Origin: Bacteroidales bacterium
GTDB taxonomy: Bacteria > Bacteroidota > Bacteroidia > Bacteroidales > P3
Assembly: GCA_017616895.1 (NCBI GenBank)
Contig: JAFZXE010000012.1
Span: 62,001 to 126,000, forward strand
Length of the DNA: 64,000 nt
Reading direction: 5' to 3'
Shown here in pieces: positions 435 to 62,068 of this stretch (position 1 is the stretch's first letter; every line of letters starts with the position of its first letter). The translations under genes and the position numbers were made by a program. The notes under the pieces were generated by a model. The model was not told where the DNA came from. It searched no databases and saw only the letters and a program-made list of their open reading frames with translations.

Positions 435-565
435 CCACCGACTACTGACTACCGACTAATGTAGATATGTTTAATGTTGATAAGTTGATATTTACTTAAA
501 ACTTACAACTTAAAACTTTCAACTTACAGCTTACAACTCATTGATTATCCTGTGCGGGTACGCAC
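435..565. repeat. Heptad repeat arrays in the convergent gap, ending in a palindromic element
   Basis: The space between the two convergent stop codons is built of degenerate 7-bp units: CYGACTA words at 436-458 and ACTTAMA words at about 494-538. It closes with the palindrome GTGCGGGTACGCAC at 552-565, which abuts the stop codon of the histidine kinase. No gene is visible in it. Confidence 0.8.
552..565 (-). repeat. Stop-adjacent palindromic element, copy 1
   Basis: On the minus strand it reads TAG|GTGCGTACCCGCAC AGGATAAT, with 5-bp arms GTGCG/CGCAC around a TACC loop. It begins directly after the TAG of the histidine kinase. The same element occurs at seven more places in the window in the same orientation relative to the gene it follows. 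Confidence 0.8.
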
Positions 566-2086
566 CTAACGACTCTTGCGAAGCACTATGCGGAACACGG
601 TTCCCTGGCCTACCACGGAGTATTTGAGGAATATCTTTCCGCGGTGGTACTCGTTGATTATGCGTCGGGCAAGTGAAAGGCCGAGACCCCAGCCACGCTG
701 TTTGGTGGTGTAGCCCGATTCGAAGATGTGTTTCTGCACCGAGGTGGGAATCCCCTTTCCTGTGTCGCTGATGTCAAGATAGATGTGTTTGCTGTCGTCG
801 GATACGATGACCGAGAATATTCCGCTGCCTTCCATTGCGTCGATGGCGTTCTTGCAGAGGTTCTCGATGACCCATTCGAAAAGGTAACGGTTCATAGGCA
901 CAATCAACTCGTTGTCGGGATAGCCCGTCTGAAACTCCACTGTTTTGGGGCTGCGGGTTTTGAGGTAGGAAATGGCGTTTTCGACCACCTCGCATAGGTT
1001 CTCGTCTTTCAATTCGGGCACCGAGCCTATTTTGGAGAAGCGGTGGGTGATGGTCTCGAGTCGCGCAAGATCTTTGCGGATTTCTGCCGAGTATTTTTCA
1101 TCGAAGGTCTTACCTTCGAGATAGTCGGTCCACGCTATCAGGGATGATATGGGAGTGCCGAGCTGGTGGGCTGTTTCCTTTGCCATGCCGACCCAGATGC
1201 GGTTTTGCTCCATGCTCCTAGCGGTGCGGAACAGGTTGTAGGAGATGAGCACCAGCACCATGAGAATGAATACATACAGCACAGGCACCCAGTTGAGCGC
1301 TTTCAGCAGGGGAGTGCTTTCGTAAAAGACGTATGCCCGCTGAGAGTCGGGCAGGGTTATCTGGATGGGAGTGTTTTCGTGCTGCATGCGCTCGAGGGTG
1401 GCGGCCAGTTTCTCTGGAGTGTTTATGCTGTTTTCGTCGAGGTTGCCGTAGCTGAGCAGGCAGTGCATTGAGCCGTCGGTAATGACGACGGGGACAAACA
1501 CCGAGTTGTTGGTGATTTCGGACAGGAAGGATTGGAGGAACCCGTTGAGCACGTGCCGCAACTCGCGGTATGTGTGCGACTCTTTGTAGTAGAGGGTCAT
1601 GGGCATGCCCCATATAGTGTAGTGGAACGGCGGATTTTGTGAGAATTCCTCGAGCAGGCGTCCTTGAAGCCGTTGCCCGCTCATCTCTTGCGGTACGGTG
1701 ATTACTCCGTCGGCATCGGTGATAATGAGGTCTGTCTGGCAGCTGTCAACGATGTAGTTCACATAAGCCAGGCTGAAACGCATGTCGGTGGCTTGGTCAG
1801 AGTTGAACGACTGCAGTATGTCGGTGTACATACGCATCTTGCGATACTCGTCGATGCCCACTTGCTTGAAGAATTCGTCCGAGTAGCTCATCAACTGCGC
1901 TTTCTGGCTTATGGCTTGCGCCCACAAGCTTACCTTCTGTTTCTCGGAGTGGCGAATCTGAGTGGCGATGTTGTTGATTTCCCAGAGGGCAAAAATAGAC
2001 AACGCCACCGTCACGGCCAAAACTATCCACTTTACACGAGGACTATGGTATATTTTCTGTCGGCTTTTTAGGTTGATTCGCTTCAT
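566..2086 (-). CDS. Sensor histidine kinase (orphan)
   Basis: A 506-residue membrane sensor kinase. A first membrane helix lies at about 20-38, followed by an extracytoplasmic sensor region of ~230 residues and a second helix at about 268-288. The kinase core has the H-box AKETAHQLGTPISSL (about 305), N-box NLCKNAIDAM, G1 box DTGKGIP and G2 box GWGLGLSLARR. The H-box with HQLGTP is the variant frequent in Bacteroidota kinases. The sensor region is not recognised, so the signal is unknown. No response regulator lies next to it; upstream on the same strand is the ABC permease, 122 bp away. The gene ends in the palindromic element. Confidence 0.9.
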   Translation of the reverse strand: MKRINLKSRQKIYHSPRVKWIVLAVTVALSIFALWEINNIATQIRHSEKQKVSLWAQAISQKAQLMSYSDEFFKQVGIDEYRKMRMYTDILQSFNSDQATDMRFSLAYVNYIVDSCQTDLIITDADGVITVPQEMSGQRLQGRLLEEFSQNPPFHYTIWGMPMTLYYKESHTYRELRHVLNGFLQSFLSEITNNSVFVPVVITDGSMHCLLSYGNLDENSINTPEKLAATLERMQHENTPIQITLPDSQRAYVFYESTPLLKALNWVPVLYVFILMVLVLISYNLFRTARSMEQNRIWVGMAKETAHQLGTPISSLIAWTDYLEGKTFDEKYSAEIRKDLARLETITHRFSKIGSVPELKDENLCEVVENAISYLKTRSPKTVEFQTGYPDNELIVPMNRYLFEWVIENLCKNAIDAMEGSGIFSVIVSDDSKHIYLDISDTGKGIPTSVQKHIFESGYTTKQRGWGLGLSLARRIINEYHRGKIFLKYSVVGQGTVFRIVLRKSR

Positions 2087-2171
2087 TTGTTTTTATTTAG
2101 AGGTGCTCGCAGCCTTCGGCACAAGTTGATATGTTTTCTGACTGCTAACTACAGACCGCAATAATCGCCCT

Positions 2172-2203
2172 GTCCGGGCACGGACCCCCGTGCGGGCACG
2201 CAC
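2172..2203 (-). repeat. Stop-adjacent palindromic element, tandem copies 2 and 3
   Basis: Two units follow the permease stop codon on the minus strand: GTGCGTGCCCGCAC (2203-2190) and then GTCCGTGCCCGGAC (2185-2172), followed by AGGGCGATTAT. The second unit differs from the first at both sides of the stem (G to C matched by C to G), so base pairing is preserved. Confidence 0.85.
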
Positions 2204-2208
2204 CCAAC

Positions 2209-3426
2209 TTATTCAAACCTTATCGTCTTGGCCGGTTCAACTCTTGAAATATATGCTGCTGGCAGCAGCAAGGCCACAGTGCAGGCTACGATGGTACCTG
2301 CGGCTATGGCTATGAATATCCAGGGGCTTAGATCGACTGGCATATAACCCACCGAGTAGCTTTCGCTATCGAGCTTCACTATGCGGAAGAAATGCTGCAA
2401 CAGACAGAGTCCCACGGCAAGCGCAGTTCCTGTTAAGATGCCGACACCCGTGATGCGGACCGACTTGATGAGAAATATCCTCCTCACCGCTGCGTTGCTG
2501 GCTCCCAGTGTCTTCAGTACTCCTATCATCGAGGTTTTCTCGAAAATCATGATAAGCAGCGCCGACACCACCGACACTATGCATACCATCGCCATAACGC
2601 AGATGATGAGCACGATGTTGGAGTTCAGTAGTTCCAGCCAAGAGAAAAGTGTCTGGTTTTCCTCAACTACGGTGGTGACGGTCTTGTCGTAGTTCACCGT
2701 TTCGCCGACCGCCTGAGCTATTGCGTCAAGGCGTCCGAAGTCATCAACAAGTATTTCGTAACCGCCGACTTCCGACTCGCTCCATCCGTTCAGTTTCTGC
2801 AGGTGGCGCAGGTCTCCAATCACGTAGTGCTCGTCAAATTCGGTGAGGTCGGTGCTGTATATGCCCACCACGGTGAAGGCTCTGGCGCGGTAGCCTTCGC
2901 CTTGCCAGAAATAGGTGCGCATCTTCGACGCTGTGTCCAATCCCAGTTTGCGTGCAATCGTCTGCGAGATGATAACCTCGTTCTTCGCCACGCTGTCGCT
3001 CATATCGAACAGCCGTCCCCTAACCAGGTTCTCTTCAAAGAAACTCAGGTCGTAGTCGCGGCTAGTGCCTTTCATCACGATACCGTGTATCTGGTTGTCG
3101 GTCTTCACCATGCCGCCTTTGGTGGCGTAGTACTGCACCTGCTTCACACCTGGCAGACTCTCCAGGTCTGCTATCTCGTTGAGGTCGGTCACAATCGGCG
3201 TCTCCTCATACAGGTTTCCTACATCGTAGCTTTTCACCACTATGTGCGAGCCGAACCCCACCACCTTGTCGCTGATGGCTTTTTGGAAGCCCTGCAGTAT
3301 GCTGACCGACATGGTCATCACCAGCACACCCAACGCTATGCTGTAGGTGGCAATTCTCACCAGCGGGGCAGAAAAACTGCCCCTCCGGTGTGATAGAAAC
3401 CGCCGTGCTATAAACCGCTCAAACAA
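2209..3426 (-). CDS. ABC transporter permease of the LolE/FtsX family
   Basis: A 405-residue inner-membrane permease. It starts with the typical cytoplasmic lead MFERFIARRFLSHRR, followed by a first membrane helix (about 27-49), a large periplasmic MacB-type domain (about 50-265) and three C-terminal helices of the FtsX domain (about 270-300, 325-345, 372-395). Relatives of this architecture (LolC/LolE) release lipoproteins from the inner membrane together with an ATPase; no ATPase gene is adjacent, so the substrate is not proven here. It starts 13 bp after tpiA and is probably cotranscribed with it. Confidence 0.88.
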   Translation of the reverse strand: MFERFIARRFLSHRRGSFSAPLVRIATYSIALGVLVMTMSVSILQGFQKAISDKVVGFGSHIVVKSYDVGNLYEETPIVTDLNEIADLESLPGVKQVQYYATKGGMVKTDNQIHGIVMKGTSRDYDLSFFEENLVRGRLFDMSDSVAKNEVIISQTIARKLGLDTASKMRTYFWQGEGYRARAFTVVGIYSTDLTEFDEHYVIGDLRHLQKLNGWSESEVGGYEILVDDFGRLDAIAQAVGETVNYDKTVTTVVEENQTLFSWLELLNSNIVLIICVMAMVCIVSVVSALLIMIFEKTSMIGVLKTLGASNAAVRRIFLIKSVRITGVGILTGTALAVGLCLLQHFFRIVKLDSESYSVGYMPVDLSPWIFIAIAAGTIVACTVALLLPAAYISRVEPAKTIRFE

Positions 3427-3439
3427 GCTTTCTGCCTAC

Positions 3440-4201
3440 TCAAAAACTGAACGCGATGGCGATAAAGTCCTCTGCTTTCAGGCATGCGCCGCCAATAAGG
3501 CCGCCATCGACATCGGTTTTCGAGAATATCTCTTTGGCGTTAGACGGTTTGCAGCTTCCGCCGTAGAGTATTGAGATTTCTTCGGCCACCTCTTTGCCGT
3601 ATTTTTCGGCTATCAGGTTGCGTATGAAGGCGTGTATCTCCTGTGCTTGTTCGGGTGTGGCAGTCTTGCCCGTTCCTATTGCCCAAACGGGTTCGTAGGC
3701 AATCACCAGCTCTTTGAACTGCTCTGCCGTCAGGTGGAACAGACCTTCTTCAATCTGCTGCTTCACCACCTCGAACTGCTTGTCTGCTTCGCGTTCTTCC
3801 AACCGTTCGCCACAGCACACTATAGGACGTATCTCGTTCTTCAGCAGTTGATCCACTTTCTTCGCCACCATGGCGTTGCTTTCGTTGTGGTACTGGCGTC
3901 GCTCAGAGTGCCCAACTATGCAGTATTCCAGCTCGATGGATTTCAGCATCGCAGCCGAAACCTCGCCAGTGTAGGCACCTTTATCTTCGGTCGATACATC
4001 CTGTGCTCCAACCAGGAAGTAAGAGTCTTTAGAATAATCAGTTGCCATCTCCAGATAAGGGAACGGGGGGCAGATGATTACCTGTGTGTTACGGTCAAGT
4101 TCTTTCTCTTCGAGGGCATCGACAATGTTGCTTATCAGTTCGTCAGCCTCCTCGAAGGTATTGTTCATTTTCCAGTTGCCTGCTACAATGTGTTTTCTCA
4201 T
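3440..4201 (-). CDS. tpiA: Triosephosphate isomerase
   Basis: Interconverts dihydroxyacetone phosphate and glyceraldehyde 3-phosphate in glycolysis and gluconeogenesis. The 253 residues are full length for the family. Visible active-site elements are Lys11 in GNWKMN, His98 in IVGHSERR, the catalytic Glu170 in AYEPVWAIGTGKTA, the phosphate loop YGGSCKPSNA and the GGLIGGACL turn near the end. It starts at ATG 4201 with an A-rich leader. Same strand as the permease downstream and the thioredoxin-like gene upstream. Confidence 0.98.
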   Translation of the reverse strand: MRKHIVAGNWKMNNTFEEADELISNIVDALEEKELDRNTQVIICPPFPYLEMATDYSKDSYFLVGAQDVSTEDKGAYTGEVSAAMLKSIELEYCIVGHSERRQYHNESNAMVAKKVDQLLKNEIRPIVCCGERLEEREADKQFEVVKQQIEEGLFHLTAEQFKELVIAYEPVWAIGTGKTATPEQAQEIHAFIRNLIAEKYGKEVAEEISILYGGSCKPSNAKEIFSKTDVDGGLIGGACLKAEDFIAIAFSF

Positions 4202-4310
4202 GATTTTATTTTCGTTTTATGTTGATATGTTTAGAATGTTTGAATGGTTTGAATGTTTGAAAGGTAACGGACCACTTAAAACTTGCAGCTTAAAACTTAA
4301 CATTTGCCCT

Positions 4311-4324
4311 GTGCGGGCACGCAC
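4311..4324 (-). repeat. Stop-adjacent palindromic element, copy 4
   Basis: GTGCGTGCCCGCAC follows the TGA of the thioredoxin-like gene with no spacer (minus strand TGA|GTGCG...), then AGGGCAAATG. A 7-bp array of ACTTAAA words lies just beyond it (4274-4302). Confidence 0.85.
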
Positions 4325-5815
4325 TCAATCAACAAATCCCGTCGGCGATGCGTTCTTCTGCCAGAACGACGGTTCGCGGTCTTTCTGTTCGGGATGCAGC
4401 CGCTCATACTGTTCGATGAACGGCATCAGCGAGCTTGCTGGTATCGACTTGTTCATGATAATCTGCCTGTCGGCGTTAAGAATAATCATCGTCGGAGCCC
4501 CGTGTACGTTGTAAGCCTCCTGATAGTCGATGTTCACGTTAGGTCCGCCCACGTTCAGGAACGGCAACTGGTGCTTTTTTACGTAGTTTTTCCACTTGTT
4601 CACATCAGCCTCGTAGCCTACCGCAAACACTTCGAAATTGCGTTTTCCTTCGCTCTCCAGCTTGTTATACACCTCAATCAGTGCCGCCGTCTGCTCCTGG
4701 CAATGATGACAGTCAGGGTCCCAGAACCACAGTATCACGTATTTCTTGGCCTGTCGGTGCGACGAAATCCTGTGCGACTCCAGCTGTGTCGTGTCGCTCA
4801 TGATGAGTTCCTGTCCGTATGCGCCTATCAGCGATTTCTCCAGAAACCGTGCCTGCTTCTTCTTGTTTTCAATGTCGCCCGCCGTCGCCCAGCTGCAGCG
4901 TCCTTTCAGATAGTAGTTCTCCACCAGATAGCACCAAACGTGGTCCCACCCGATGTTCTTGGTCGAACGGTAGTAGCGCGGAGCGATAAAGTCCATAAAG
5001 TAGCGCATCATCGCTGTGTCGCCGTCCATCCTCGACAGCACCATGTCGGCATAGCGGCATATCGTGTCTGCGTCTGCGTGATACAGCACTCCGAAAAAGT
5101 AGTAGTTCATCTTGTTGAACAAGTCTGGAGTGTATCTCAGCGAGTGGTCCTTCAGGTTGACTCCATCCCAGTAGTGAGTGCGGTAATAGACTGGTTTGTT
5201 CTCCACCTCGTCTGGCACATCCGGTCCGCTGAACTCTTTCACCAACTGGAAGAACAGCTGTTTCTTGTTTTTCTCCAGCGTGTTTTTTTCGTAAGCAGTC
5301 ATCCGTTCGCTCAACGCTGCCTGCTCCTTCTTCGCCGCTACCGAGTCAGCTCCTTTCGTCCGCTCGTTTATTGCTTTCGCCTCTGCACGTGCCTCGCTAA
5401 TCGTGGCCATGTAGGCGTACATCTCTTTGCACGCATCGCTCCCCGTAACCTTCATGTTCTTGGGTCTGAATGCGCTGTCGGCCGTTATGGTGAATTTCTG
5501 GCTTCCGTCGATTACAAAATCAGTCAGCCCCACCCATTTCGTCTCTTTTTTCTTCTTGTTAACATCCTTGCGCACAAATGCATACACGCCCCGTTCCCAA
5601 CTGCGTTTCCCTTTGAATACGAACGAGCCGTCACTCCGTCTTGTTGTGCTGTCCTTCAGTATGAACTCGTCGCGATAGTGCTGTCCAATATATAAGACGC
5701 TGTCTTGCCGCTTCTCTGTTTTCAGCGTTATTTCGTAGTTCTGCGCCATTGCGTTGCACCCCGCCCACAGCGAGCAACATAAAGTGGCGAGTCCTAGCAC
5801 GATTTTTTTAGGCAT
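4325..5815 (-). CDS. Thioredoxin-like redox protein, exported
   Basis: The start is taken at ATG 5815 (MPKKIVLGLATLCC), giving 496 residues with an N-terminal export signal ending near CNAMAQ; an ATG at 5833 in the same frame is possible. The first ~340 residues resemble the DUF4369/DUF5106-type N-terminal region often joined to Bacteroidota thiol-disulfide proteins, with a charged coiled segment in the middle. The last ~135 residues are a thioredoxin fold with the redox motif WDPDCHHC and the cis-Pro loop HGAPT. It is probably a periplasmic or outer-membrane-facing oxidoreductase. The partner protein is unknown. The gene ends in the palindromic element. Confidence 0.85.
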   Translation of the reverse strand: MPKKIVLGLATLCCSLWAGCNAMAQNYEITLKTEKRQDSVLYIGQHYRDEFILKDSTTRRSDGSFVFKGKRSWERGVYAFVRKDVNKKKKETKWVGLTDFVIDGSQKFTITADSAFRPKNMKVTGSDACKEMYAYMATISEARAEAKAINERTKGADSVAAKKEQAALSERMTAYEKNTLEKNKKQLFFQLVKEFSGPDVPDEVENKPVYYRTHYWDGVNLKDHSLRYTPDLFNKMNYYFFGVLYHADADTICRYADMVLSRMDGDTAMMRYFMDFIAPRYYRSTKNIGWDHVWCYLVENYYLKGRCSWATAGDIENKKKQARFLEKSLIGAYGQELIMSDTTQLESHRISSHRQAKKYVILWFWDPDCHHCQEQTAALIEVYNKLESEGKRNFEVFAVGYEADVNKWKNYVKKHQLPFLNVGGPNVNIDYQEAYNVHGAPTMIILNADRQIIMNKSIPASSLMPFIEQYERLHPEQKDREPSFWQKNASPTGFVD

Positions 5816-5974
5816 AGTATTTTTATTATACATCAATGTAATAACGTTGCGCCGATGCTTTTATTGCATAACCCATCAGCGGTTAAACCTTACAACTAAT
5901 AGCTTGAAAAAGAGTTGGACAGGCAAAATGGCGACTGCCGTCAGGCGCTTAATTGCCACTACCGTAAAACGGTC

Positions 5975-6775: not shown

Positions 6776-6780
6776 CACTT

Positions 6781-17644: not shown

Positions 17645-17657
17645 GTGCGGCCAGCAC
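17645..17657 (-). repeat. Palindromic element, isolated degenerate copy
   Basis: On the minus strand GGTGCTGGCCGCACGGGCGATTA keeps the GTGC/GCAC stem and the GGGCGATTA tail of the stop-adjacent element, but no recognisable gene ends here. It may mark a decayed gene. Confidence 0.6.
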
Positions 17658-27145: not shown

Positions 27146-27150
27146 GTCTG

Positions 27151-27224
27151 TGGTCCCTCTTGGGCTCGAACCAAGGACCCACTGATTATGAGTCAGTTGC
27201 TCTAACCGACTGAGCTAAGGGACC
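27151..27224 (-). tRNA. tRNA with CAT anticodon (elongator Met or lysidine Ile2)
   Basis: A full cloverleaf on the minus strand: acceptor GGTCCCT/AGGGACC with discriminator A, D arm GCTC..GAGC, anticodon stem ACTGA/TCAGT with loop CTCATAA, and T arm CTTGG-TTCGAGC-CCAAG. CCA is not encoded. CAT may be read as AUG by elongator tRNA-Met, or as AUA after lysidine modification; identity cannot be fixed from sequence alone, but the initiator type is excluded because the acceptor's first pair is matched and the anticodon stem lacks three G-C pairs. Confidence 0.95.
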
Positions 27225-36571: not shown

Positions 36572-38275
36572 TTGATAGAATCTTTACATATTGAAAACTA
36601 CGCCCTTATCCGTGAGTCGGATATTGCTTTCGGCGACGGCTTTACGGCAATAACCGGCGAGACGGGTGCGGGAAAGTCGATATTGCTGGGCGCTCTCGGA
36701 TTGGTGCTTGGCCAGCGCGCCGACACCGCTGCGCTCTATGACAGCACGAAGAAGTGCATCGTCGAAGCTCGCTTCAACATCGAAGGGCTGGGAATGGAGG
36801 CTCTCTTCGCCGAGCACGACCTCGACTACGACTCCACACTCATACTGCGCCGCGAGATACTCCCCAGCGCCAAGTCGCGCGCTTTCGTCAACGACACGCC
36901 TGTGACACTTCCGGTGATGAAAGAGGTGGCTACTCGATTGATAGACATACATTCGCAGCACGAGACGCTGACTCTCAGCGAGTCGGGTTTCCAGACGGAA
37001 CTGCTCGACAGCTTCAACGGCGGTGCGGCCGCTCGTAAACAATACTCCGAGGCATACGGTGAATACACGACTTTGAAGCGTGAGCTCGAGGTACTTATGG
37101 CCGCAGACGCTCAAGGCAAGCGTGACCTCGACTACAACCGTTTCCTTTTCGACGAGTTGCAGAAGGCCGCCTTAAGCGATGGCGAACAGGAAGATTTAGA
37201 AAAAGAGTCGGAACTGCTCGAACACACGGAGGTGATAAAGCAGACGCTCTCGTCGATAACACAGAGTTGCGCTTCGGACGACAACTCGGCGGTAACAGCC
37301 CTTCTGACCGCTAAGTCGCAGCTCTCCAAGGTGGTGTCGTTCCATCCCGACCTGGAGGAGCTTTTCAACCGCCTTGACTCGAGTATCATAGAGCTGCGCG
37401 ACATAATGGGCAGCATCGAGACGATCGACAACGACTTGATTTATTCGACCGAACGTCAGGATTATGTCAACGAACGGCTCGACACTATATATCGTTTGCA
37501 GAAGAAACATAACGTGAACTCGATAGCGGAACTGCTGCAGATAGAACAGCGCCTCGACGAAGCCATACAAGCCGCCGACAACATGGACGAGCGCATTAAA
37601 ACCGCGATGGAGGATGTCGATAAGGCCTACTCGAAGTTGCAGCAGGTAGCGGAGAAACTGACCGCCATACGCCGCAAGTCGGCCACGTTTGTAGAAAAGC
37701 AGATACTGCCCACACTTGCCTCGCTCGGCATGAAGGACGCACGTCTGGAGGTGCGCATAACGCCCGCAAAGGAGTTCGGCCCTACGGGTGGCGACGAGGT
37801 GACATTCTTTTTCAGCGCCAACAAAGGGTCGGAACCTCGCGAAATAGGAAAGGTGGCATCGGGAGGCGAACTGTCGCGTCTGATGCTTGCCATCAAGTCT
37901 CTCATCTCGCAGGCGACGCTGCTGCCAACCATCATCTTCGACGAGATAGACACGGGTGTGTCGGGCGATATCGCCGTACAGGTGGGTTCTATTCTGCGCT
38001 CGATGGCGTCGCACATGCAGGTGATAGCCATAACCCATCTGCCACAGATAGCCGCCACAGCCTCAGCTCAGCTGAAAGTATATAAGCAGGTCGAGTCGCT
38101 CGCCGGTCAAACGTCAGACACCACTCAGCGTACCGCATCGCACATAAGGCCGCTCTCCACCGACGAACGCGTCCACGAGGTGGCTGTGATGCTTTCGTCG
38201 GAACCTCCGACAGAAGCTGCCCTCCAAACCGCCCGAGAGCTGATGAGTGCGTGCCCGCACAGATCAGTTAAGTAG
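36572..38275 (+). CDS. recN: DNA repair protein RecN
   Basis: 567 residues, SMC-like ATPase of double-strand-break repair. Walker A GETGAGKS, a long coiled-coil middle (about 150-370), ABC signature ASGGELSRLMLAIKSL, Walker B TIIFDEIDTGVSG and the HLPQIAA motif. The start is TTG 36572: an in-frame TGA lies 6 bp upstream and no ATG precedes the conserved SLHIENYALI. Its last residues SACPHRSVK are encoded by the palindromic element GTGCGTGCCCGCAC, so the element has replaced the original C-terminus. Confidence 0.95.
   Translation: MIESLHIENYALIRESDIAFGDGFTAITGETGAGKSILLGALGLVLGQRADTAALYDSTKKCIVEARFNIEGLGMEALFAEHDLDYDSTLILRREILPSAKSRAFVNDTPVTLPVMKEVATRLIDIHSQHETLTLSESGFQTELLDSFNGGAAARKQYSEAYGEYTTLKRELEVLMAADAQGKRDLDYNRFLFDELQKAALSDGEQEDLEKESELLEHTEVIKQTLSSITQSCASDDNSAVTALLTAKSQLSKVVSFHPDLEELFNRLDSSIIELRDIMGSIETIDNDLIYSTERQDYVNERLDTIYRLQKKHNVNSIAELLQIEQRLDEAIQAADNMDERIKTAMEDVDKAYSKLQQVAEKLTAIRRKSATFVEKQILPTLASLGMKDARLEVRITPAKEFGPTGGDEVTFFFSANKGSEPREIGKVASGGELSRLMLAIKSLISQATLLPTIIFDEIDTGVSGDIAVQVGSILRSMASHMQVIAITHLPQIAATASAQLKVYKQVESLAGQTSDTTQRTASHIRPLSTDERVHEVAVMLSSEPPTEAALQTARELMSACPHRSVK
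38247..38260 (+). repeat. Palindromic element, copy overlapping the recN 3' end
   Basis: GTGCGTGCCCGCACAGATCAGTTAAG lies in frame at the end of recN, preceded by an out-of-frame TGATGA. The gene now stops 12 bp further on. Confidence 0.85.
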
Positions 38276-40857: not shown

Positions 40858-41982
40858 ATGAAAAAACTGCTTCTTATAGCGCTTGTTGTCGCTGGATGCG
40901 GCGCGGGCGCACACGACAACACTCAGCCGCAAGCGGTTGAATCTGTGACTGAAACCAAGGCTGCGCCTGTCGAGTATGTCGATTTCTCCGATGTGGCTGC
41001 CTCCACTATCGACGCGGTGGTGCACATCCGCACCGAGATGACCAAGGTGACGCCTCTCTACCAGACTTTCTTCGGCATGATTATCGATCGAGGTGTGCAG
41101 CGTCAGAAGTACGAGGCCTACGGATCGGGAGTGATTGTCAGCGCCGACGGATATATCGTCACCAACAACCACGTGGTGCAGGATGCCGAGCGTATCACCG
41201 TCAACCTCAACAACAAGCGTGTGGTTGAAGCTCGCCTTGTCGGTACCGACCCCGCCACCGACCTGGCTGTCATAAAGATAGAAGAGAAGAACTTGACTTA
41301 TATCCCATACGGCAACAGCGACCTGGCTCGCATCGGTGAGCCGGTTCTGGCTATTGGCAACCCGTTCAACCTCACTTCTACCGTAACCGCTGGCATCATC
41401 AGTGCCAAAGCTCGCAATATGAATATTATTGCCAACCCGGGAGGTCAGGAAAGTCCCATTGAGTCGTTCATACAGACCGACGCTGCGGTCAATCCGGGCA
41501 ACTCGGGCGGCGCACTCGTCAACGCCTCAGGCCAGCTTATAGGCATCGTGACGGCCATCGCTTCTGGCGACGGATACTATACGGGCTACAGCTTCGCCAT
41601 CCCATCCAATTTGGTTCAGAAGGTGGCGAAAGACCTGATGGAGTATGGCTATGTGCAGCGTGCCTATCTCGGTGTCAACGTGGTGGAGGTCACCAACGAG
41701 GTCGCTCGTCAGACGGGCGTCAACGAGTTGAAAGGTCTCTATGTAGCTAATGTCATCCCTGGCTGCGCTGCCGCCAACGCTGGCATCAAACCGGGCGACG
41801 TGATTCGCACAATCAAAGGGGTTGAAGTCAACACCTTCGCCGAGATGACCGAAGAACTGGGACGTTGCGCCCCTGGCGACAAAGTGGAGATAGATTTCAC
41901 CCGCGAAGATCGCTCGCTCAAAACAACCGCTACACTCCTCAACTCACAGGGAACCACCGCGATAATTAAGAAAAGGAAGTGA
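40858..41982 (+). CDS. DegP/HtrA-type serine protease, lipoprotein
   Basis: 374 residues. Lipoprotein signal with VVAGC (Cys14), a trypsin-like domain with catalytic triad His105 (TNNHVV), Asp135 (TDLAVIK) and Ser216 (PGNSGGAL), and one PDZ domain (about 270-365). It degrades or refolds misfolded envelope proteins. E. coli DegP has two PDZ domains and no lipid anchor; this one has one PDZ, more like DegS, but tethered by a lipid. The MATE gene overlaps its stop (GTGA). Confidence 0.93.
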   Translation: MKKLLLIALVVAGCGAGAHDNTQPQAVESVTETKAAPVEYVDFSDVAASTIDAVVHIRTEMTKVTPLYQTFFGMIIDRGVQRQKYEAYGSGVIVSADGYIVTNNHVVQDAERITVNLNNKRVVEARLVGTDPATDLAVIKIEEKNLTYIPYGNSDLARIGEPVLAIGNPFNLTSTVTAGIISAKARNMNIIANPGGQESPIESFIQTDAAVNPGNSGGALVNASGQLIGIVTAIASGDGYYTGYSFAIPSNLVQKVAKDLMEYGYVQRAYLGVNVVEVTNEVARQTGVNELKGLYVANVIPGCAAANAGIKPGDVIRTIKGVEVNTFAEMTEELGRCAPGDKVEIDFTREDRSLKTTATLLNSQGTTAIIKKRK

Positions 41983-43361
41983 GTCTCGACGACAAATACC
42001 TCTACATGACCGAAACGCCGGTTCGCCGGCTGGTGCTCCGTTTGGCCGTTCCCACCATCGTGAGCATGATGGTGACGGCGCTCTATAATGTCGTCGATGC
42101 GGCATTTGTAGGACACCTCTCCACCGAAGCAACCGCTGGCATCGGCATCTCGTTTGCCTATATGACTTTCATCCAGGCGATGGGCTTTTTCTTCGGTCAT
42201 GGGTCGGGTAATTTCATCTCTCGCGCACTCGGCGCCAAACAGTACGACACAGCTGGGCAGATGGCTGCTGTGGGCTTCGGCACGTCGTTTCTCATAGGGT
42301 TGGTGGCTGCAATTCCCTGCCTGATATTTCTTGAGCCGATAGCAGTGTTGCTCGGCTCGCCCGACGCTGTGGTGGGTGAAACCTGCAACTACCTGCGTTT
42401 CATCGTCATCGCCACGCCGTTCATGATGTCGGCGTTGACGCTCAACAACCAACTGCGACTGCAGGGCAATGCCCGCTTCGCTATGATTGGCATCGCCAGC
42501 GGTGCAGTGCTTAACATGTTGCTCGACCCGCTCTTCATCTTCGGCTTCCGATGGGGAGTGAGCGGTGCGTCGGCTGCGACGGCGGTGAGCCAGTTTGTGA
42601 GTTGGTGCATCCTGCTTTGGGGCACCACCCGAGCCGACAGCGTACACATCCTTCCGCGCAACTTCCGTCCCACCTTGCGTTGCTACAACGAAATCCTTCA
42701 CGGAGGACTCCCGTCGCTCGGACGTCAGTTCTTCAACTTCATTGCCGCCCTGAGCCTCAACTATGCAGCCGCCATCTATGCCGACCCGGGTTGTGAGGCA
42801 TCGAGCGTAGGCGCCTTCGCCATCGTGACACGCACCATGATGTTCGCCTTCTCCATAGTGCTCGGCTTCGACCAGGGGTTCCAGCCTGTGGCGGGGTTCA
42901 ACTATGGAGCTGGCCTCTACACCCGTGTTCGTGACGCTTACATTTTCGCCATACAGGTCACCACTGTGCTGCTCTGCGTCGTGTCGGCGATTGGACTTCT
43001 CTTTGCTCCCGACATTATACGCCTTTTCCGCGATGAAGACCCCGTCTTGGTTGAGATAGGAGCTCGCGCACTCCGTTGGCAGTGTGTCGCCTTCCCGTTG
43101 ATGGCGCTCGCCACCGCCACCAACATGCTCTTCCAGAACATCCGTATGACTTTCAAATCCACGCTACTCAGCATCGGTCGGCAGGGCATCTTCTTCCTCC
43201 CAGCCATCTTCATCCTGCCACGCTTTTGGGGCATCCACGGAGTCGAGATGGCACAAGCCGTCGCCGACATCTGCACATTCCTCCTCTCGCTCCCCTACGC
43301 CATCTGGATATACCGCAAACTAAGCGTTAGCAGTCATGTGCAAGCCCACACAGGGCAATAA
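41979..43361 (+). CDS. MATE-family efflux transporter
   Basis: 460 residues, 12 membrane helices in two six-helix halves (RLVLRLAVPTIVSMMVTALYNVVDAAFVG at the start, ALSLNYAAAIYADPG.. and QGFQPVAGFNYGAGLY in the second half). MATE proteins export drugs or metabolites using Na+ or H+ gradients; substrate unknown. Starts at GTG inside the protease stop. The last residues SSHVQAHTGQ and the TAA stop itself come from a palindromic element (43338-43351 plus tail). Confidence 0.93.
   Translation: MSLDDKYLYMTETPVRRLVLRLAVPTIVSMMVTALYNVVDAAFVGHLSTEATAGIGISFAYMTFIQAMGFFFGHGSGNFISRALGAKQYDTAGQMAAVGFGTSFLIGLVAAIPCLIFLEPIAVLLGSPDAVVGETCNYLRFIVIATPFMMSALTLNNQLRLQGNARFAMIGIASGAVLNMLLDPLFIFGFRWGVSGASAATAVSQFVSWCILLWGTTRADSVHILPRNFRPTLRCYNEILHGGLPSLGRQFFNFIAALSLNYAAAIYADPGCEASSVGAFAIVTRTMMFAFSIVLGFDQGFQPVAGFNYGAGLYTRVRDAYIFAIQVTTVLLCVVSAIGLLFAPDIIRLFRDEDPVLVEIGARALRWQCVAFPLMALATATNMLFQNIRMTFKSTLLSIGRQGIFFLPAIFILPRFWGIHGVEMAQAVADICTFLLSLPYAIWIYRKLSVSSHVQAHTGQ
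43338..43361 (+). repeat. Palindromic element supplying the MATE stop codon
   Basis: GTGCAAGCCCACAC followed by AGGGCAATAA: the element's tail GGGCAATAA provides the in-frame TAA. The stem is reduced to TGTG/CACA. Confidence 0.75.
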
Positions 43362-56161: not shown

Positions 56162-56433
56162 AACTTTTATTTTTTTTGATTTATAATTCTTGTTTGTGGT
56201 GCATACTAAGCACATCCCTTTGGAAGCAATTTCAGTGCCAAATAGATGACTACTGTCAGATTGGTGACATTTTGTCATATATGGTGGTGCCTATAAACTT
56301 TACACAGACTTAATTCAGAGTTTATACAGACTTTACTCAGAGGTTGAACAAATAAGTGGTATCGCCATGTTGAAGCCATACTAAAGTAGAGTGACATGAA
56401 ATATTTCACCGTCGGCTACGTTATTAATAAATT
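56162..56433. other. Leader between dnaK and the small plus-strand gene
   Basis: A TGACA-TTT-TGTCA palindrome (56267-56279) and an imperfect 22-bp tandem repeat (ACAGACTTNATTCAGAG-type, about 56303-56345). No TAnnTTTG was found at a good distance from dnaK. Neither an HrcA-like CIRCE box nor a coding frame is visible. Confidence 0.5.
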
Positions 56434-56637
56434 ATGAGTGACATGGACAAAAACGAAGAACTTCGTCGGCTTAAACAACTGCTGGCTAACTATGAGGAAC
56501 TGCTGACTGACTGTATGGACGACAGCAGCTATGTGGCTCGTGGTAACGGCTTCTGCGACAATAAATACAGCGACGACTTCATCGAAGGGCGTATTGCTGA
56601 TATAAAACAGCGCATCGCTGAACTTGAGAAAAAATAG
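56434..56637 (+). CDS. Small charged helical protein
   Basis: 67 residues starting at ATG 56434 (or ATG 56443). Highly charged and helical (DKNEELRRLKQLLANYEELLTDC, EGRIADIKQRIAELEKK): two probable coiled-coil helices separated by a loop with YVARGNGF. It sits 43 bp before recR on the same strand. No recognised family; likely a real gene given position and composition. Confidence 0.65.
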   Translation: MSDMDKNEELRRLKQLLANYEELLTDCMDDSSYVARGNGFCDNKYSDDFIEGRIADIKQRIAELEKK

Positions 56638-56679
56638 TGGTCGGAAAACAGGCATAACACATCAAATATCTCGCACCTA

Positions 56680-57297
56680 TTGGACCTTCCTTCAAATAAA
56701 CTGCAACAGGCTGTCGATCAGCTGGCCTCGCTTCCAGGCGTTGGCAAGCGCAGTGCGCTGCGGTATGCTCTGCATCTAATGCGTCAGGACGAGGCTAGGT
56801 TTGCCGACTTCGTGTCTGCAGTATCGGCTTTGAAGACCGACGTGCACCTCTGCCGCCGTTGCCACTGTGTGAGCGACGAGGAATTGTGTCCCATTTGCAG
56901 GAGCCCCAAGCGTCAGCATGGTGTCATCTGTGTTGTGGAGAATATTCAGGATGTGCTCGCCATAGAGAACACTCAACAGTATCGCGGTGTCTATCATGTG
57001 CTTGGCGGAGTTATATCGCCTATTGATGGCATCGGAATTCGCGACATCAACATCGCATCTTTGCTGAGTCGCATTCAGCAGGCCGACCCCGAGCCTGTGC
57101 AGGAGGTCATTCTTGCGCTGCCTACCACTATGGAGGGTGACACTACGGCGTTCTACATCAACAAACAGCTCGAGCCTTTAGGTGTGAAGGTGAGTGCCAT
57201 AGCTCGTGGCATCTCGGTAGGCGACAGTCTTGAATATGCCGACGAGATAACCCTCGCCCGCTCCATTATGCATCGTGTACCCTTCAGCAGCCAGTAA
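56680..57297 (+). CDS. recR: Recombination protein RecR
   Basis: 205 residues beginning at TTG 56680 (MDLPSNKLQQAVDQLASLPGVGKRSA); no ATG precedes the conserved HhH motif. Zinc finger Cys58/Cys61/Cys70/Cys73, Toprim domain with GVICVVENIQDVLAIENT and YHVLGGVISPIDGIG. It acts with RecF/RecO to load RecA at gaps. Confidence 0.96.
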   Translation: MDLPSNKLQQAVDQLASLPGVGKRSALRYALHLMRQDEARFADFVSAVSALKTDVHLCRRCHCVSDEELCPICRSPKRQHGVICVVENIQDVLAIENTQQYRGVYHVLGGVISPIDGIGIRDINIASLLSRIQQADPEPVQEVILALPTTMEGDTTAFYINKQLEPLGVKVSAIARGISVGDSLEYADEITLARSIMHRVPFSSQ

Positions 57298-57382
57298 ATC
57301 TACGCCTTGAACAATTATTCGTTATCCATCCATTACAATTCAATCTTCCTCCACCACTCTTAACTATTCACAATTAAAAAAT

Positions 57383-58540
57383 ATGCGTCGGTATTTTCTT
57401 TTTATTCTATGTTTCTGCCTTATGACGGTGGCTTGTGCGCAGAGGGCTGATGAGAACAAAAAAATTGAAGGCAAGAAAAAAAATGTTGAACAGAAATCGG
57501 ACTTGCGTCGCGACATCGGAGAGATGCTGATTGTCGGTTTCCGTGGCTATAGTGTTGCGGATACCAGCCATATACGCCGTGACATCGTTGACTATCACAT
57601 TGGTGGTGTTATACTTTTTGAATACGATGCACCCAGCAGAAAACATGTCCGCAATATCTCGACCCCTAGACAGTTGGAATCGCTTTGCTATCAGTTGCAG
57701 TCGCTTATGGATGAAACTCTGCTCATTGGCATCGATCAGGAGGGTGGACGGGTGAACCGCCTGCGGGAGGATAGAGGATTCCCGAAGTTTATGTCAGCCA
57801 AGAAGTCTGCGGAATACGGCAACGACACTATACGGCACTATGCAGCCCTTACCGCCGCACAGTTGAAGAGGGTAGGGGTGAACCTGAACTTTGCACCCTG
57901 CGTGGATGTCGATATCAACCCTGCCTGCCCGGTGATAGGCAAGTTGGATCGCAGTTTTTCCAAGTCGCCCAAGACAGTTGCCAATGCTGCCCGTATCTGG
58001 ATCGACGAGCAGCGCAAGAAAGGGGTGGTCTCATGCCTGAAACACTTCCCGGGACACGGCAGCGCTAAAGGCGACACTCACCTCGGTCTCGTAGATGTCA
58101 CCGACACATGGAAGGCCTCCGAGCTGGAACCATACAAGACTCTGATTTCAGAAGGCGTGGTGGATATGGTGATGACGGCGCACGTTATAAATCGCAAACT
58201 CGACAAGGAGTATCCTTCGTCGCTCTCATATAGCATCACCACAAAACTGCTGCGTGATTCGCTGGGTTACAATGGTGTGATTATTACCGACGATATGGCT
58301 ATGGGCGCTATAGTGAACGAATATGGCTTTGAAGAAGCCTTACGCCTCGCTATCGCCGCTGGTGCCGATTTGCTCTGCCTCTCTAACAACGGTAACGAGT
58401 ACAACCCTGAGGTGGTGCCGCAAACTATCGCCATCGTCGAGAAGCTGGTGGCTGAAGGCAAGCTATCTGCCAAAGATATCCACACTTCCGCCGAACGAAT
58501 CAGGAAGCTAAAAGCGTCCGTCCTCGGACATGGAAATTAA
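57383..58540 (+). CDS. Glycoside hydrolase family 3 protein, NagZ-like
   Basis: 385 residues with an export signal (1-19, TVACA; a Cys at 18 could be lipidated). Only the GH3 N-terminal barrel is present, as in NagZ beta-N-acetylhexosaminidases: GIDQEGGRVNRL, KHFPGHGSAKGDTH with the Asp-His dyad (Asp231, His233) and ITDDMAMGAI holding the nucleophile (303-304). Probably cuts N-acetylglucosamine from peptidoglycan or glycan fragments. The small lipoprotein and SprT-like genes follow. Confidence 0.88.
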   Translation: MRRYFLFILCFCLMTVACAQRADENKKIEGKKKNVEQKSDLRRDIGEMLIVGFRGYSVADTSHIRRDIVDYHIGGVILFEYDAPSRKHVRNISTPRQLESLCYQLQSLMDETLLIGIDQEGGRVNRLREDRGFPKFMSAKKSAEYGNDTIRHYAALTAAQLKRVGVNLNFAPCVDVDINPACPVIGKLDRSFSKSPKTVANAARIWIDEQRKKGVVSCLKHFPGHGSAKGDTHLGLVDVTDTWKASELEPYKTLISEGVVDMVMTAHVINRKLDKEYPSSLSYSITTKLLRDSLGYNGVIITDDMAMGAIVNEYGFEEALRLAIAAGADLLCLSNNGNEYNPEVVPQTIAIVEKLVAEGKLSAKDIHTSAERIRKLKASVLGHGN

Positions 58541-58599
58541 TAGTCATCAACCAGTATCCTTTTTAACTTTAAAACCTTTTAATCGTTTCAACCGTTGCT

Positions 58600-58773
58600 A
58601 TGAAAAAACGCTGTGCCATATATGTAATGCTAGCCCTTGTATGCTTGTTGGCATCGGGTTGCAGCAAGAAAGGCAACGCCATGCCAAAGCACCGTAAGCG
58701 TAAACACTGCGACTGCCCCTATTTCAGTCAAAATACCGACTACGAGGTTCAAGATGCCGTGATATGGCAGTAA
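58600..58773 (+). CDS. 57-residue lipoprotein
   Basis: A short gene from ATG 58600 to TAA 58773: MKKRCAIYVMLALVCLLASGC, a full lipoprotein signal with lipobox ASGC, then SKKGNAMPKHRKRKHCDCPYFSQ, a strongly basic stretch with a CDC pair. Its end overlaps the start of the SprT-like gene by 10 bp, which suggests translational coupling. No family recognised. Confidence 0.75.
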   Translation: MKKRCAIYVMLALVCLLASGCSKKGNAMPKHRKRKHCDCPYFSQNTDYEVQDAVIWQ

Positions 58774-59411
58774 TCGACGAAAAACGCCCGGATCGCTTCC
58801 ATGACATTATGTCGCATTACGTGCCGTCGCCAGCCGTCGATGACATCGTACGCTTTATTTCCAATTATTCCATACATCTTAAAATTACACGAGAGCGGCA
58901 TAGCAAGTTTGGCGACTACCGCTTGCCGTCACCCAGGCATCCTGACCATTGTATCAGCGTGAATGGATGTCTGGAGCCCTGCGCGTTCTTGCTTGTCATG
59001 ATTCATGAACTGGCTCACATGCTCACCTTTATCGACCACGGACGCAGTGTAAAACCCCACGGAGTGGAATGGCAGGAACATTACAGGCGGCTGATAATGT
59101 GTTTTGTAGAGAAAGATTGTTTCCCATCCGATGTGTCTTCGATGCTGCGCACTTACGCCTCCACGCTTCCGCTCAGTAAAAAACTAGAGCGCGAAATTGA
59201 CAGCAAACTTAAGATACAGCCGTCGATAATAGTTGATAGCGATAATTACCTCACCCTCGACACCCTTCCATCTGGCACCCGTTTCCGATTAAAAGGGCAG
59301 GATAGGGTCTTTGAGAGTATAGAAAAACTGCGTACCCGATGGAAGTGCATCGATATCTCAACAGGTCGCTTATATACCGTGTCGGCGGTGGCTCCAGTCG
59401 AACCATGTTGA
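58764..59411 (+). CDS. SprT-like zinc metallopeptidase
   Basis: 215 residues with the SprT-like active site: MIHELAHM (His81, Glu82, His85) and a third ligand in KPHGVEW (His99). A C-terminal region of about 75 residues follows. SprT/Spartan relatives cleave proteins crosslinked to DNA in eukaryotes; bacterial members are little characterised. Overlaps the small lipoprotein and ends in a terminator. Confidence 0.88.
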   Translation: MAVIDEKRPDRFHDIMSHYVPSPAVDDIVRFISNYSIHLKITRERHSKFGDYRLPSPRHPDHCISVNGCLEPCAFLLVMIHELAHMLTFIDHGRSVKPHGVEWQEHYRRLIMCFVEKDCFPSDVSSMLRTYASTLPLSKKLEREIDSKLKIQPSIIVDSDNYLTLDTLPSGTRFRLKGQDRVFESIEKLRTRWKCIDISTGRLYTVSAVAPVEPC

Positions 59412-59424
59412 TGCAAACAAAAGA

Positions 59425-59464
59425 AAAAGAGGCGTCTGCATAAGCGGGCACCTCCTTTTTTTTG
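59425..59464 (+). terminator. Terminator after the SprT-like gene
   Basis: GAGGCG and CCTC pair imperfectly (59430-59455) followed by CTTTTTTTT. Confidence 0.6.
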
Positions 59465-59483
59465 AGTGTTGTATTCAAATGGC

Positions 59484-60464
59484 TTATTTCTCGCCGGGTT
59501 TCTTGACCTGCTGCTGAGCGGGTTTCGAGATGCTTTCGCGCATGTCGGTGTCGGCCTGGATGTTTTTCATACGATAATAGTCCATGATGCCGAGGTTGCC
59601 GCTTCGGAAAGCTTCGGCCATTGCCTTTGGCACTTCGGCTTCGGCTTCGATAACGTGGGCGCGGGCTTCCTGAGCGCGAGCTTTCATCTCCTGCTCCTGA
59701 GCCACAGCCATAGCTCTGCGTTCCTCAGCCTTCGCCTGTGCGATGTTCTTGTCGGCGTTGGCCTGATCCATCTGCAGCTGAGCACCGATGTTCTTTCCGA
59801 CGTCGATGTCGGCGATGTCGATGGAGAGTATTTCGAAAGCGGTGCCGCTGTCAAGACCTTTGGTGAGCACCAGTTTGGATATAGAGTCGGGGTTTTCAAG
59901 CACCTGCTTGTGGCTTACTGCTGAACCGATGGAGGTCACGATGCCCTCGCCGACGCGAGCCAGGATGGTCTCCTCACCGGCGCCTCCGACAAGCTGTTTG
60001 ATGTTGGTGCGCACGGTCACACGTGCTTTGGCAATCAACTGGATACCGTCCTTGGCAACTGCAGCCACAGGAGGAGTGTCGATCACTTTGGGGTTGACCG
60101 AAGTCTGCACGGCTTTCAGCACATCGCGGCCTGCGAGGTCGATGGCGGTAGCGGTTTTGAAGTCGAGGTTCATGTTGGCTTTGTCGGCCGAGATAAGGGC
60201 GTTGACCACCGAGTTGACGCGTCCGCCAGCCAGGTAGTGGGCTTCCAGCTCGTTCTGGTTGAGTTTCAATCCAGCTTTCGAAGCCGAGATGAGGTTGTTC
60301 ACGATAACCGACGGCGGGACCTTACGGAAACGCATGAACACCAACTGGACGAGCGAGGTGTGCACTCCCGAAATCAATGCCTGGAACCATATCCCGATGG
60401 GGAAGAAAATCAGGAAGATGATGAGGGCGACAATGCAAATGCCGATAATGATAAATGTCTCCAT
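59484..60464 (-). CDS. floA: Flotillin-like protein FloA
   Basis: 326 residues. A membrane hairpin at the N-terminus ([26 protein letters not shown]), an SPFH domain (about 40-200), then an Ala/Glu-rich coiled coil ([37 protein letters not shown]). It forms membrane scaffolds that organise lipid domains. Downstream partner of nfeD on the same strand. Confidence 0.95.
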
Positions 60465-60479
60465 AATATTGATGTTTTT

Positions 60480-60605
60480 TTGTTAGTAATCTGTTATGTG
60501 ACCTGTGATCTGTGATCTGTGACCTGTGATCTGTGATCTGTGACCTGTGAACTGTGAACTGTGACCTGTGAACTGTGACTTGTGAGCTGTGATCTGAGTG
60601 GGGTT
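60480..60605. repeat. Array of 7-bp units (AYCTGTG)
   Basis: About eleven consecutive units of the type ATCTGTG, ACCTGTG and AACTGTG lie between nfeD and floA. Confidence 0.9.
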
Positions 60606-60631
60606 GATTGGTTGGGTGACTGTTCTCTCGA

Positions 60632-61108
60632 TTAGAATCTTTCGTCGTCACACTCTTTCACGTCGATGCGATAGCCGTCAACGGCAACCACCTCGATGGG
60701 TTTGTCCTGGTCGATGAACTTGTTGATGGCGTGTACTTCGACCATCTCGCCGTCGATGATGGCTTTCCCGGTGGGGGCTAGACGTGCTACGGTCTTGCCG
60801 TGTGCGCCCACCTGTATTGCTTTGGCGTCAATCTGGTTTACCTTGCTGTCCGACTCTTCGTTCAAGCTGAACCGTTTCCAGGTCTTGGATTTCAGCAGGA
60901 AGGCGAGGAATACGATGGTCAGCACGACACAACCCACCAGCACGCAGGTGCCTGCGGTGTTGCCGTATTTGCTGTAGGTCCACCAGATGCCGAAAGCGAG
61001 CATAAGGATTCCGATGCCGCCGGCGATTCCGCCAGGAAGGGCGACTATCTCAAGAGTCAGCAGCGCAAGTCCGACTGCCAGTACGATGATTATAAGTGCG
61101 ATATCCAT
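60632..61108 (-). CDS. NfeD-like membrane protein
   Basis: 158 residues with three membrane helices (about 3-24, 27-45, 54-72) and a C-terminal OB-fold (APTGKAIIDGEMVEVHAINKFIDQDKPIEVVAVDGYRIDVKE). NfeD proteins form pairs with flotillin/stomatin proteins; the floA gene follows directly. Confidence 0.93.
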   Translation of the reverse strand: MDIALIIIVLAVGLALLTLEIVALPGGIAGGIGILMLAFGIWWTYSKYGNTAGTCVLVGCVVLTIVFLAFLLKSKTWKRFSLNEESDSKVNQIDAKAIQVGAHGKTVARLAPTGKAIIDGEMVEVHAINKFIDQDKPIEVVAVDGYRIDVKECDDERF

Positions 61109-61207
61109 GATGGGTTAGTTGTTGATATGTTGATATGTTTGAAGGGTTCGAAAGGTTTAAGAGTTTAAAAGGTAACTAACTGCTGACTGCTGACTGCTAA
61201 CCGCCAA
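61109..61207. repeat. Repeat words in the clpS-nfeD spacer
   Basis: GTTGATATGTT words (61117-61130) and CTGCTGA units (61174-61195, 7-bp period) fill the spacer. Confidence 0.65.
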
Positions 61208-61489
61208 CTACTGAACTATCTCTGTCGTGAGTTGTTTGTTGAGCAGCGAGGTGTGCATCGGGAGGAGCGTCTCGTAGCTGCCGTTTTTCACGACACATTT
61301 GCCCTTGCAGTGAACTATGATTGCACATTGTTCTGCTTGCTCTGCGGTGTGGCGGCAGATATCGACGAGCGCCTTTATCACATAGTCGAACGTGTGTACA
61401 TCGTCGTTGTAGAGCAGTAGCTTGCATCCTTCGTCGTTCAGGGTCGCGAGGTCTTCTTCTGACTGTGTATGTGTCTTGGATTTTTCCAT
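61208..61489 (-). CDS. clpS: ATP-dependent Clp protease adaptor ClpS
   Basis: 93 residues with the substrate pocket motif LLYNDDVHTFDYVI and the closing YETLLPMHTSLLNKQL. It delivers N-degron proteins to ClpAP. Begins 5 bp after ispF on the same strand. Confidence 0.93.
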   Translation of the reverse strand: MEKSKTHTQSEEDLATLNDEGCKLLLYNDDVHTFDYVIKALVDICRHTAEQAEQCAIIVHCKGKCVVKNGSYETLLPMHTSLLNKQLTTEIVQ

Positions 61490-61494
61490 AGTGT

Positions 61495-61974
61495 TTAATG
61501 GTCGGTGGTCAGTATCGTTATGGCCTGTGCAGAGATGCCTTCTTCTCGGCCTTCGAATCCGAGATGTTCGGTGGTGGTGGCTTTCACCGATACACGGTCG
61601 ATGTCTATCCCCATCGTCTCGGCCAAGTTCTGTCGCATCTGCTCTATGTAGGGCGCAACCTTGGGTTTCTGCATACAGAGTATGCTGTCCACATTGCCCA
61701 CGGAATAGCCTTTTTCGGATATCAGTCGTACCGTTTCTTTCAGCAGCAGGAGACTGTCGATGCCTTTGTATTTAGGGTCGGTGTCAGGGAAGTGTTTTCC
61801 GATGTCGCCCAACGCAGCAGCGCCGAGCAGGGCGTCGCAGATGGCGTGTATCAGCACGTCGGCGTCGGAGTGTCCCACCAGACCTTTCGAGTGTTCAATC
61901 CTCACACCGCCCAAAGTCAGCGGAAGCCCCTCGCGGAGCTGATGTACATCATAACCTATGCCGACTCGGAACAT
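61495..61974 (-). CDS. ispF: 2-C-methyl-D-erythritol 2,4-cyclodiphosphate synthase
   Basis: 159 residues, normal length. Zinc motif GIGYDVHQL (Asp9, His11), GLVGHSDADV, DIGKHFPDTDPKYKG and the ATTTEHLGFEGR loop. It catalyses a cyclisation step in the non-mevalonate isoprenoid route, which feeds the polyprenyl synthase in this window. Confidence 0.98.
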   Translation of the reverse strand: MFRVGIGYDVHQLREGLPLTLGGVRIEHSKGLVGHSDADVLIHAICDALLGAAALGDIGKHFPDTDPKYKGIDSLLLLKETVRLISEKGYSVGNVDSILCMQKPKVAPYIEQMRQNLAETMGIDIDRVSVKATTTEHLGFEGREEGISAQAITILTTDH

Positions 61975-62054
61975 GAGAATTGTTTTTGATTGCGTTAATG
62001 CGTTAGTGTGTTATAGTGTGTTAGTGTGGTTGCTTGAAACTAAATTATCGCCCT

Positions 62055-62068
62055 GTGCGGGCACGCAC
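62055..62068 (-). repeat. Stop-adjacent palindromic element after porV
   Basis: On the minus strand TAG|GTGCGTGCCCGCAC AGGGCGATAAT: the best-conserved copy, with no spacer between stop codon and stem. Confidence 0.9.

Follow-up and report, generated by a model that had tools for sequence, protein, structure and literature searches.

The genome of a member of the Bacteroidales (GenBank assembly GCA_017616895.1, here G000; 2.6 Mb in 31 contigs, 88% complete) harbours a short palindromic repeat that very often stands in sense orientation directly behind the native stop codon of a gene, and whose presence at a given gene end differs between members of the genus. The repeat came to light in a stretch of 64,000 nucleotides (contig JAFZXE010000012.1, positions 62,001 to 126,000 of the forward strand), the whole of which is referred to as the window. 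Its 14-mer core, GTGCGTGCCCGCAC, is present in 67 exact copies in G000, and the reversed control pattern in none. On balance, we favour the view that the element is an orphan mobile repeat of about 24 nucleotides (nt), similar to the repetitive extragenic palindromic (REP) elements and marked by an unusually exact placement at gene ends.

Placement at gene ends

Copies were collected by a relaxed search, which accepted up to three mismatches to either of two stem types, or the exact 14-mer, and which misses older copies. It returned 108 copies in G000, 40 in the congener G388 and nine in the congener G383; the latter two sets were gathered mostly around exact 19-mers that include the core and are not unbiased. 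An unbiased sample of G000 comprises 452 kb (contigs C1 and C8, two stretches of C5 and the window) and contains 39 copies, 28 of them intergenic. Gene ends were called by custom codon-score scripts instead of a standard caller.

The placement of the sample copies is strikingly precise. Thirteen of the 25 intergenic, non-tandem copies begin exactly 0 nt past a same-strand stop codon, a position expected for 0.15% of random intergenic placements and for 2.4% if any TAG, TAA, TGA or CAG served as target; a same-strand gene lies upstream of 23 of the 25. Among sense copies that follow a stop trinucleotide, 13 of 18 do so at the gene's own stop, against an expectation of 12.5% (p = 8e-9). A target motif combined with the purging of insertions into genes is ruled out by these counts. 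Orientation is constrained too: exact hairpins in 172 intergenic spaces between tandem genes number 20 in sense and none in antisense, and a single inverted copy, on contig C1 at 16263, still adjoins a TAG on the other strand.

The complete G000 collection displays the same pattern. An in-frame stop is followed at 0 nt by 33 of the 108 copies; a further four stand at +1, where the first G of the element completes a TAG, and 16 are read through, the gene ending 24–50 nt past the start of the element. The original prediction of copies phased to stop codons in a fixed orientation is therefore upheld across the genome, and random placement is not what the sample or the full collection displays. 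The stops at 0 nt, counted for non-tandem copies, are skewed towards TAG (21 TAG, 8 TAA and 4 TGA, versus 73, 137 and 104 in the sample; p = 4e-6). Stop positions are occupied by 24 of 49 exact copies and by 13 of 46 diverged ones (p = 0.06), and adjacency to stops is for this reason not a product of age. Two further schemes were rejected: a mobile unit that brings its own stop codon, as TAG precedes the hairpin in only one of 13 non-tandem read-through copies, and a minigene read through after the stop, as the in-frame stop in the tail is variable.

Native stops and related genomes

The protein ends at 18 of the 37 stop-adjacent sites were compared with orthologues from as many as five congeners, 50 of 65 matches being used. 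The end residue of the protein is identical in 43 of the 50 comparisons, which places the hairpin behind a native stop, and in the other seven the relative is one or two residues shorter. At most of these sites the relatives carry a different sequence past the stop; in a few cases a copy of its own, or a decayed one, is found in G383. Viewed from G388, nine sites with the element correspond to three with and six without it in G383, and to none with it in G000; stop positions, judged by eye, are unchanged at seven of the nine. One site (L088) holds a single unit in G383 and a tandem pair in G388.

The spaces between genes contain other repeats. Orthologous gene ends in G388, G383, G329, G364 and G389 (loci L174–L223) show species-specific arrays of 7–8 nt units that start at or next to the stop, and in the G000 sample seven of 73 arrays start within the stop codon itself, the remaining 3-nt bins having five at most. 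Same-strand gene spaces in G000 (loci L093–L112 and the window; n = 172) contain repeat modules with a strand bias, each favouring its own position on the way from stop to start: the hairpin comes first, followed by (TTTTAAG)n, (GCAGTTA)n, CACAGATCAC and then, nearer the next start codon, TAACACA or CATATCAAC.

Arrays that differ between species at one and the same gene end raise the question of whether intergenic DNA is passively overwritten: with fast turnover by tandem repeats and a protected coding region, any repeat would come to end at a stop. We regard this explanation as very unlikely. The arrays pile up at stops only weakly, whereas the hairpin peaks sharply at 0 nt; exact hairpin copies are found at stops no less often than diverged ones; and the hairpin also occupies some gene ends in a second phylum.

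Sequence and structure of the element

The consensus can be written as GTGCG-TGCC-CGCAC-AGGGC-RATAA. The core accommodates two overlapping helices: H1, which joins positions 1–5 with 10–14 and is the stem initially described, and H2, which pairs TGCCC (6–10) with GGGCR (16–20). In an RNA model H2 folds better, at −8.3 kcal/mol for a 28-mer versus −5.5 kcal/mol for H1 alone, and the 28-mer fold is unremarkable relative to shuffled sequences (z = −0.7). The two helices have one base in common, and the element may perhaps operate as a switch or form a tight pseudoknot.

Stem variants were counted in 192 copies, a set that amounts to 191 upon correction for a G383 copy (L072) first counted on both strands, which likewise lowers the G383 total from ten to nine. 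Seven of 62 stretches containing the 19-mer were omitted from this count (L041, L050, L058, L066, L080, L083 and L090), being single hits in unrelated taxa or belonging to one conserved coding gene; L052, L059 and L076, which are perhaps coding too, were retained. The H1 pair 3–12 is G-C in 163 copies and C-G in 21; the H2 pair 9–17 is C-G in 174, T-A in seven and non-pairing in nine, the T-A form being found in both phyla (six Bacteroidales copies and one from the Oscillospiraceae). The compensated variant GTCCG/CGGAC, from which selection on the stem had been proposed, is real, but it represents one shared subfamily, beside which uncompensated single stem changes also occur, and not repeated selection across sites. 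With few subfamilies, pairing is seen to be kept, but the number of selection events is not told by these counts.

Distribution in the genus and in a second phylum

Within the genus the element is patchy: of the 31 genomes sampled, three carry multiple copies (67, 32 and 13), two a single match and 26 none. G000 was the only genome with a match to the 19-mer in a draw of 295 from the order, a sample from which the other two carriers were absent. A search of a genome collection recovered the 19-mer in 62 stretches, about 30 of them from the Bacteroidales carriers and their kin and 25 from metagenome-assembled genomes (MAGs) of Oscillospiraceae, Ruminococcus and Clostridia; seven were set aside as probable chance matches. 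The identical 19-mer is multi-copy in rumen Oscillospiraceae, one MAG containing 20 exact 14-mers and 14 exact 19-mers, and is mostly followed there by a different sequence (AGACGC...). Among 32 copies from this second phylum, four stand at 0 nt and one at 1 nt after a stop, and two are read through. Three copies lie 1 nt past the 3′ ends of tRNA genes (tRNA-Pro twice and tRNA-Trp once): a mechanism requiring translation alone would not explain them.

Some of these loci have features of their own. In three from Oscillospiraceae (L044, L084 and L089) the hairpin heads a longer repeat, with about 100 nt of downstream sequence in common and further palindromes. In L052, L059 and L076 (Oscillospiraceae or Clostridia MAGs) the 19-mer follows a short stretch resembling a gene start; a similar start is seen again downstream of it in L052 and L059.

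The use of tRNA ends bears on a possible though unlikely alternative, namely that the hairpin is a functional RNA 3′-end element, kept behind stops and tRNA ends by virtue of protecting RNA 3′ ends or modulating termination, and that copies elsewhere have been lost. The 3′-end stabilisation suggested at the outset would be one such role. The sense orientation of a nearly symmetric stem, the conserved loop and tail, and the two helices with compensated variants would all be accounted for, and stop-proximal REPs of Escherichia coli are reported to act on translation (PMC12306157). A selected function sits less easily with the restriction of multiple copies to three of 31 congeners and with the lack of a hairpin in most of the orthologous genes compared. 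In addition, distances of 1–3 nt should equal 0 nt in value to such an element, and the first helix, at −5.5 kcal/mol alone, is weak beside its alternative.

Origin of the copies and candidate movers

The favoured reading, a mobile REP-like repeat, agrees with an element that looks recent and mobile in sequence comparisons. The original suggestion of a transposon gains from three signs of mobility: the limitation of multiple copies to three of 31 congeners, the absence of the element from G383 at six of nine G388 sites and the occurrence of the 19-mer in a second phylum. Copies would be made in trans by an enzyme outside the Y1_Tnp and RVT_1 families. Insertion, and not later erosion, would be aimed at the 3′ edge of genes, since the share of copies at stops is no lower among exact than among diverged ones. 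Copies may then persist at gene ends because the gene product is left intact or is altered only at its tip. The hairpin, once in the transcript, would lie next to a terminating ribosome and may have secondary effects on termination or mRNA decay of the kind reported for E. coli REPs close to stops.

Several results weigh against this reading. In G000, 34 of the 108 copies lie 1–122 nt downstream of a gene end and 21 are without a gene end within reach. Placement is looser in G388, in which eight of 40 copies stand at 0 nt and one at +1, and 14 follow ATG or GTG; in the Oscillospiraceae just five of 32 are 0 or 1 nt from a stop, and two loci there (L034 and L071) look orthologous. No clean empty site, flanked on either side by homologous sequence and able to reveal the ends of the element and any target duplication, came out of the congener comparison, the intergenic DNA having been rewritten from one species to the next. 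Finally, the transposase family Y1_Tnp (PF01797) is represented in none of the three multi-copy congeners, G000 included, in a search that did not extend to other transposase families, and reverse transcriptases do not track the element.

Both enzyme families had been considered as movers. The REP-associated tyrosine (RAYT) transposase proposed at the outset receives no backing: beyond the multi-copy congeners, of the 12 other copy-bearing genomes G306 alone, a Reindeer MAG with a single copy (locus L113), yielded a Y1_Tnp hit. A reverse transcriptase was rejected as well, RVT_1 being present in one of the three multi-copy congeners, in one of four other congeners and in the sole Oscillospiraceae genome tested; such a spread over carriers and non-carriers reveals no pattern. 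With regard to carriage by phages, no exact 19-mer was found in a viral collection, plasmids not being searched. Rfam 15, applied at the gathering threshold to the window and 12 loci, returned tRNAs only. The 14-mer string is absent from the literature searched, in which titles and abstract openings describe no element as targeting stop codons.

Could the element be a classical REP family of the GTAG type that has lost its RAYT gene recently, or whose RAYT gene lies in the unassembled part of incomplete genomes? Such a family would match it in size, copy number and location downstream of genes, and TAG precedes 29 of 95 non-tandem G000 copies. GTAG termini are described as often supplying the stop, and REPs of the CGTC type as lacking a dedicated transposase (PMC3733652). 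The tag is variable here, however: GTAG precedes only five of the 95 non-tandem copies in G000 and two of 40 in G388, the commonest preceding bases being TTAG and TCAG in G000 and ATG or GTG in G388. No G000 copy among the 95 follows CGTC, and the 3′ side of the consensus, AGGGCRATAA, shows neither tag on inspection, uncounted. The alternating orientation of bacterial interspersed mosaic elements (BIMEs) is likewise not seen: within 300 nt, neighbouring copies number 20 on the same strand and none on the opposite strand in G000, and two and none in G388, so that inverted pairs are lacking. Two of the three multi-copy congeners without Y1_Tnp are, moreover, 97% complete. This explanation appears improbable.

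That the repeat is an intrinsic terminator motif of the lineage is hardly credible. A GC-rich hairpin at gene ends would suit a terminator, but the consensus tail AGGGCRATAA is without the T-run that should follow it, and intrinsic termination, one of the roles put forward in the original prediction, is for that reason unsupported. Moreover, a same-strand gene follows 10 of the 13 stop-adjacent sample copies after 54–274 nt, and the inverted contig C1 copy precedes a separate terminator-like hairpin.

A bolder version of the mobile-element reading is unlikely, if worth stating: that the element crosses phyla with true gene-end specificity, a new insertion machinery placing a two-state hairpin of 24 nt at the 3′ edge of genes. 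The substrate of such machinery might perhaps be the transcript, or else the sense strand displaced in the wake of a terminating ribosome or past the matured end of a tRNA. If true, this reading would represent safe-haven targeting in which the gene end itself, instead of a DNA motif, marks the site. More generally, if placement is set at insertion, a so far undescribed way to recognise gene ends would be implied; selection as the cause would mean that an RNA 3′ element has been acquired by dozens of genes. The 19-mer common to two phyla suggests that very small elements are transferred between bacteria in the rumen.

Copies in the window

Eight copies had been listed in the window, seven of them at the 3′ ends of six genes and in gene direction. 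Seven are real and indeed lie so; the eighth, a 13-nt look-alike at 17645–17657 (minus strand), adjoins no gene end, is missed by the 14-mer scan with three mismatches and is probably a chance or decayed match. That scan gave 16 matches in the window, near-palindromes scoring on both strands; 100 shuffled versions gave 6.0 on average and at most 13.

The three copies said to follow a stop without spacer do so, all on the minus strand. The copy at 547–565 (GTGCGTACCCGCACAGGAT; 14-mer at 552–565, loop TACC) stands 0 nt after the TAG of a histidine-kinase-type ATPase gene (HATPase_c; 566–2020). An exact 19-mer at 4306–4324 (14-mer at 4311–4324) directly follows the TGA of a thioredoxin-like gene (Thioredoxin_8/DUF5106; 4325–5749), and another at 62050–62068 (14-mer at 62055–62068) follows the TAG of a gene of the PorV family, linked to type IX secretion (62069–63265). 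On the same strand, a copy of the GTGCG type at 2185–2203 (14-mer at 2190–2203) begins 5 nt after the TAA of a MacB_PCD/FtsX permease gene (2209–3360); shifted from it by 18 nt is a tandem copy of the GTCCG/CGGAC subfamily at 2167–2185 (14-mer at 2172–2185).

In two plus-strand genes the element is read in frame, as had been noted. The recN-like gene (SMC_N; 36572–38275) runs through the copy at 38247–38265 (14-mer at 38247–38260), and its stop, TAG at 38273–38275, lies just past the element. In the MatE transporter gene (41979–43361), by contrast, the TAA of the element's tail is the stop: a degenerate copy at 43338–43356 (GTGCAAGCCCACACAGGGC; 14-mer at 43338–43351), in which two stem pairs are broken, makes up with its tail the last eight codons of the gene, stop included. 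A tRNA-Met gene is located at 27150–27224, with no element found beside it.

Comparison with known systems

Integron attC sites resemble the element in being hairpin sites located directly behind an open reading frame in fixed orientation. Here, orthologous chromosomal genes keep their 3′ end with or without the element.

The closest likeness is to REPs, generally palindromes of about 20–40 nt in high copy number that are mainly intergenic: the core here measures 19–24 nt and is represented by 67 exact and 108 related copies. REPs are described as lying mainly downstream of coding regions, near stops (PMC3733652, PMC2817692), and in two species close to the 3′ ends of open reading frames, at under 20 bp for convergent pairs (PMC3733652). 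The element thus appears to be of the REP kind, outside the GTAG and CGTC families. It differs in having no fixed GTAG or CGTC tag and no nearby inverted pairs, neighbouring copies lying on one strand, unlike those in BIMEs. In sense orientation it peaks at exactly 0 nt past native stops, an apparent contrast to REPs, which are compared here through their reported proximity to stops. It also occurs at tRNA 3′ ends, is accompanied by no Y1 transposase in the multi-copy congeners and has an identical core in two phyla.

In E. coli, the REPs that lie at most 15 nt from a stop number 260 of 496 in one study and 446 of 4,072 in another, and they are reported to stall ribosomes (PMC12306157). The position is shared by 51 of the 108 G000 copies, which lie 0–15 nt from a stop or complete one, a resemblance in position; the hairpin here is much smaller (E. 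coli REP size from PMC2817692). TAACTGA heptamers, intergenic repeats common to distant lineages including Bacteroidetes, offer a parallel for the arrays beside the hairpin, but are non-palindromic and, in the main genome studied, mostly situated just upstream of start codons (PMC4679880).

Stop proximity alone is already known for REPs, and even the supply of TAG is documented, so that the contrast originally drawn with REPs was overstated (PMC3733652, PMC12306157). Short palindromes near stops are familiar: what the element adds is single-nucleotide placement behind a native stop, traceable across sister species that differ in their copies.

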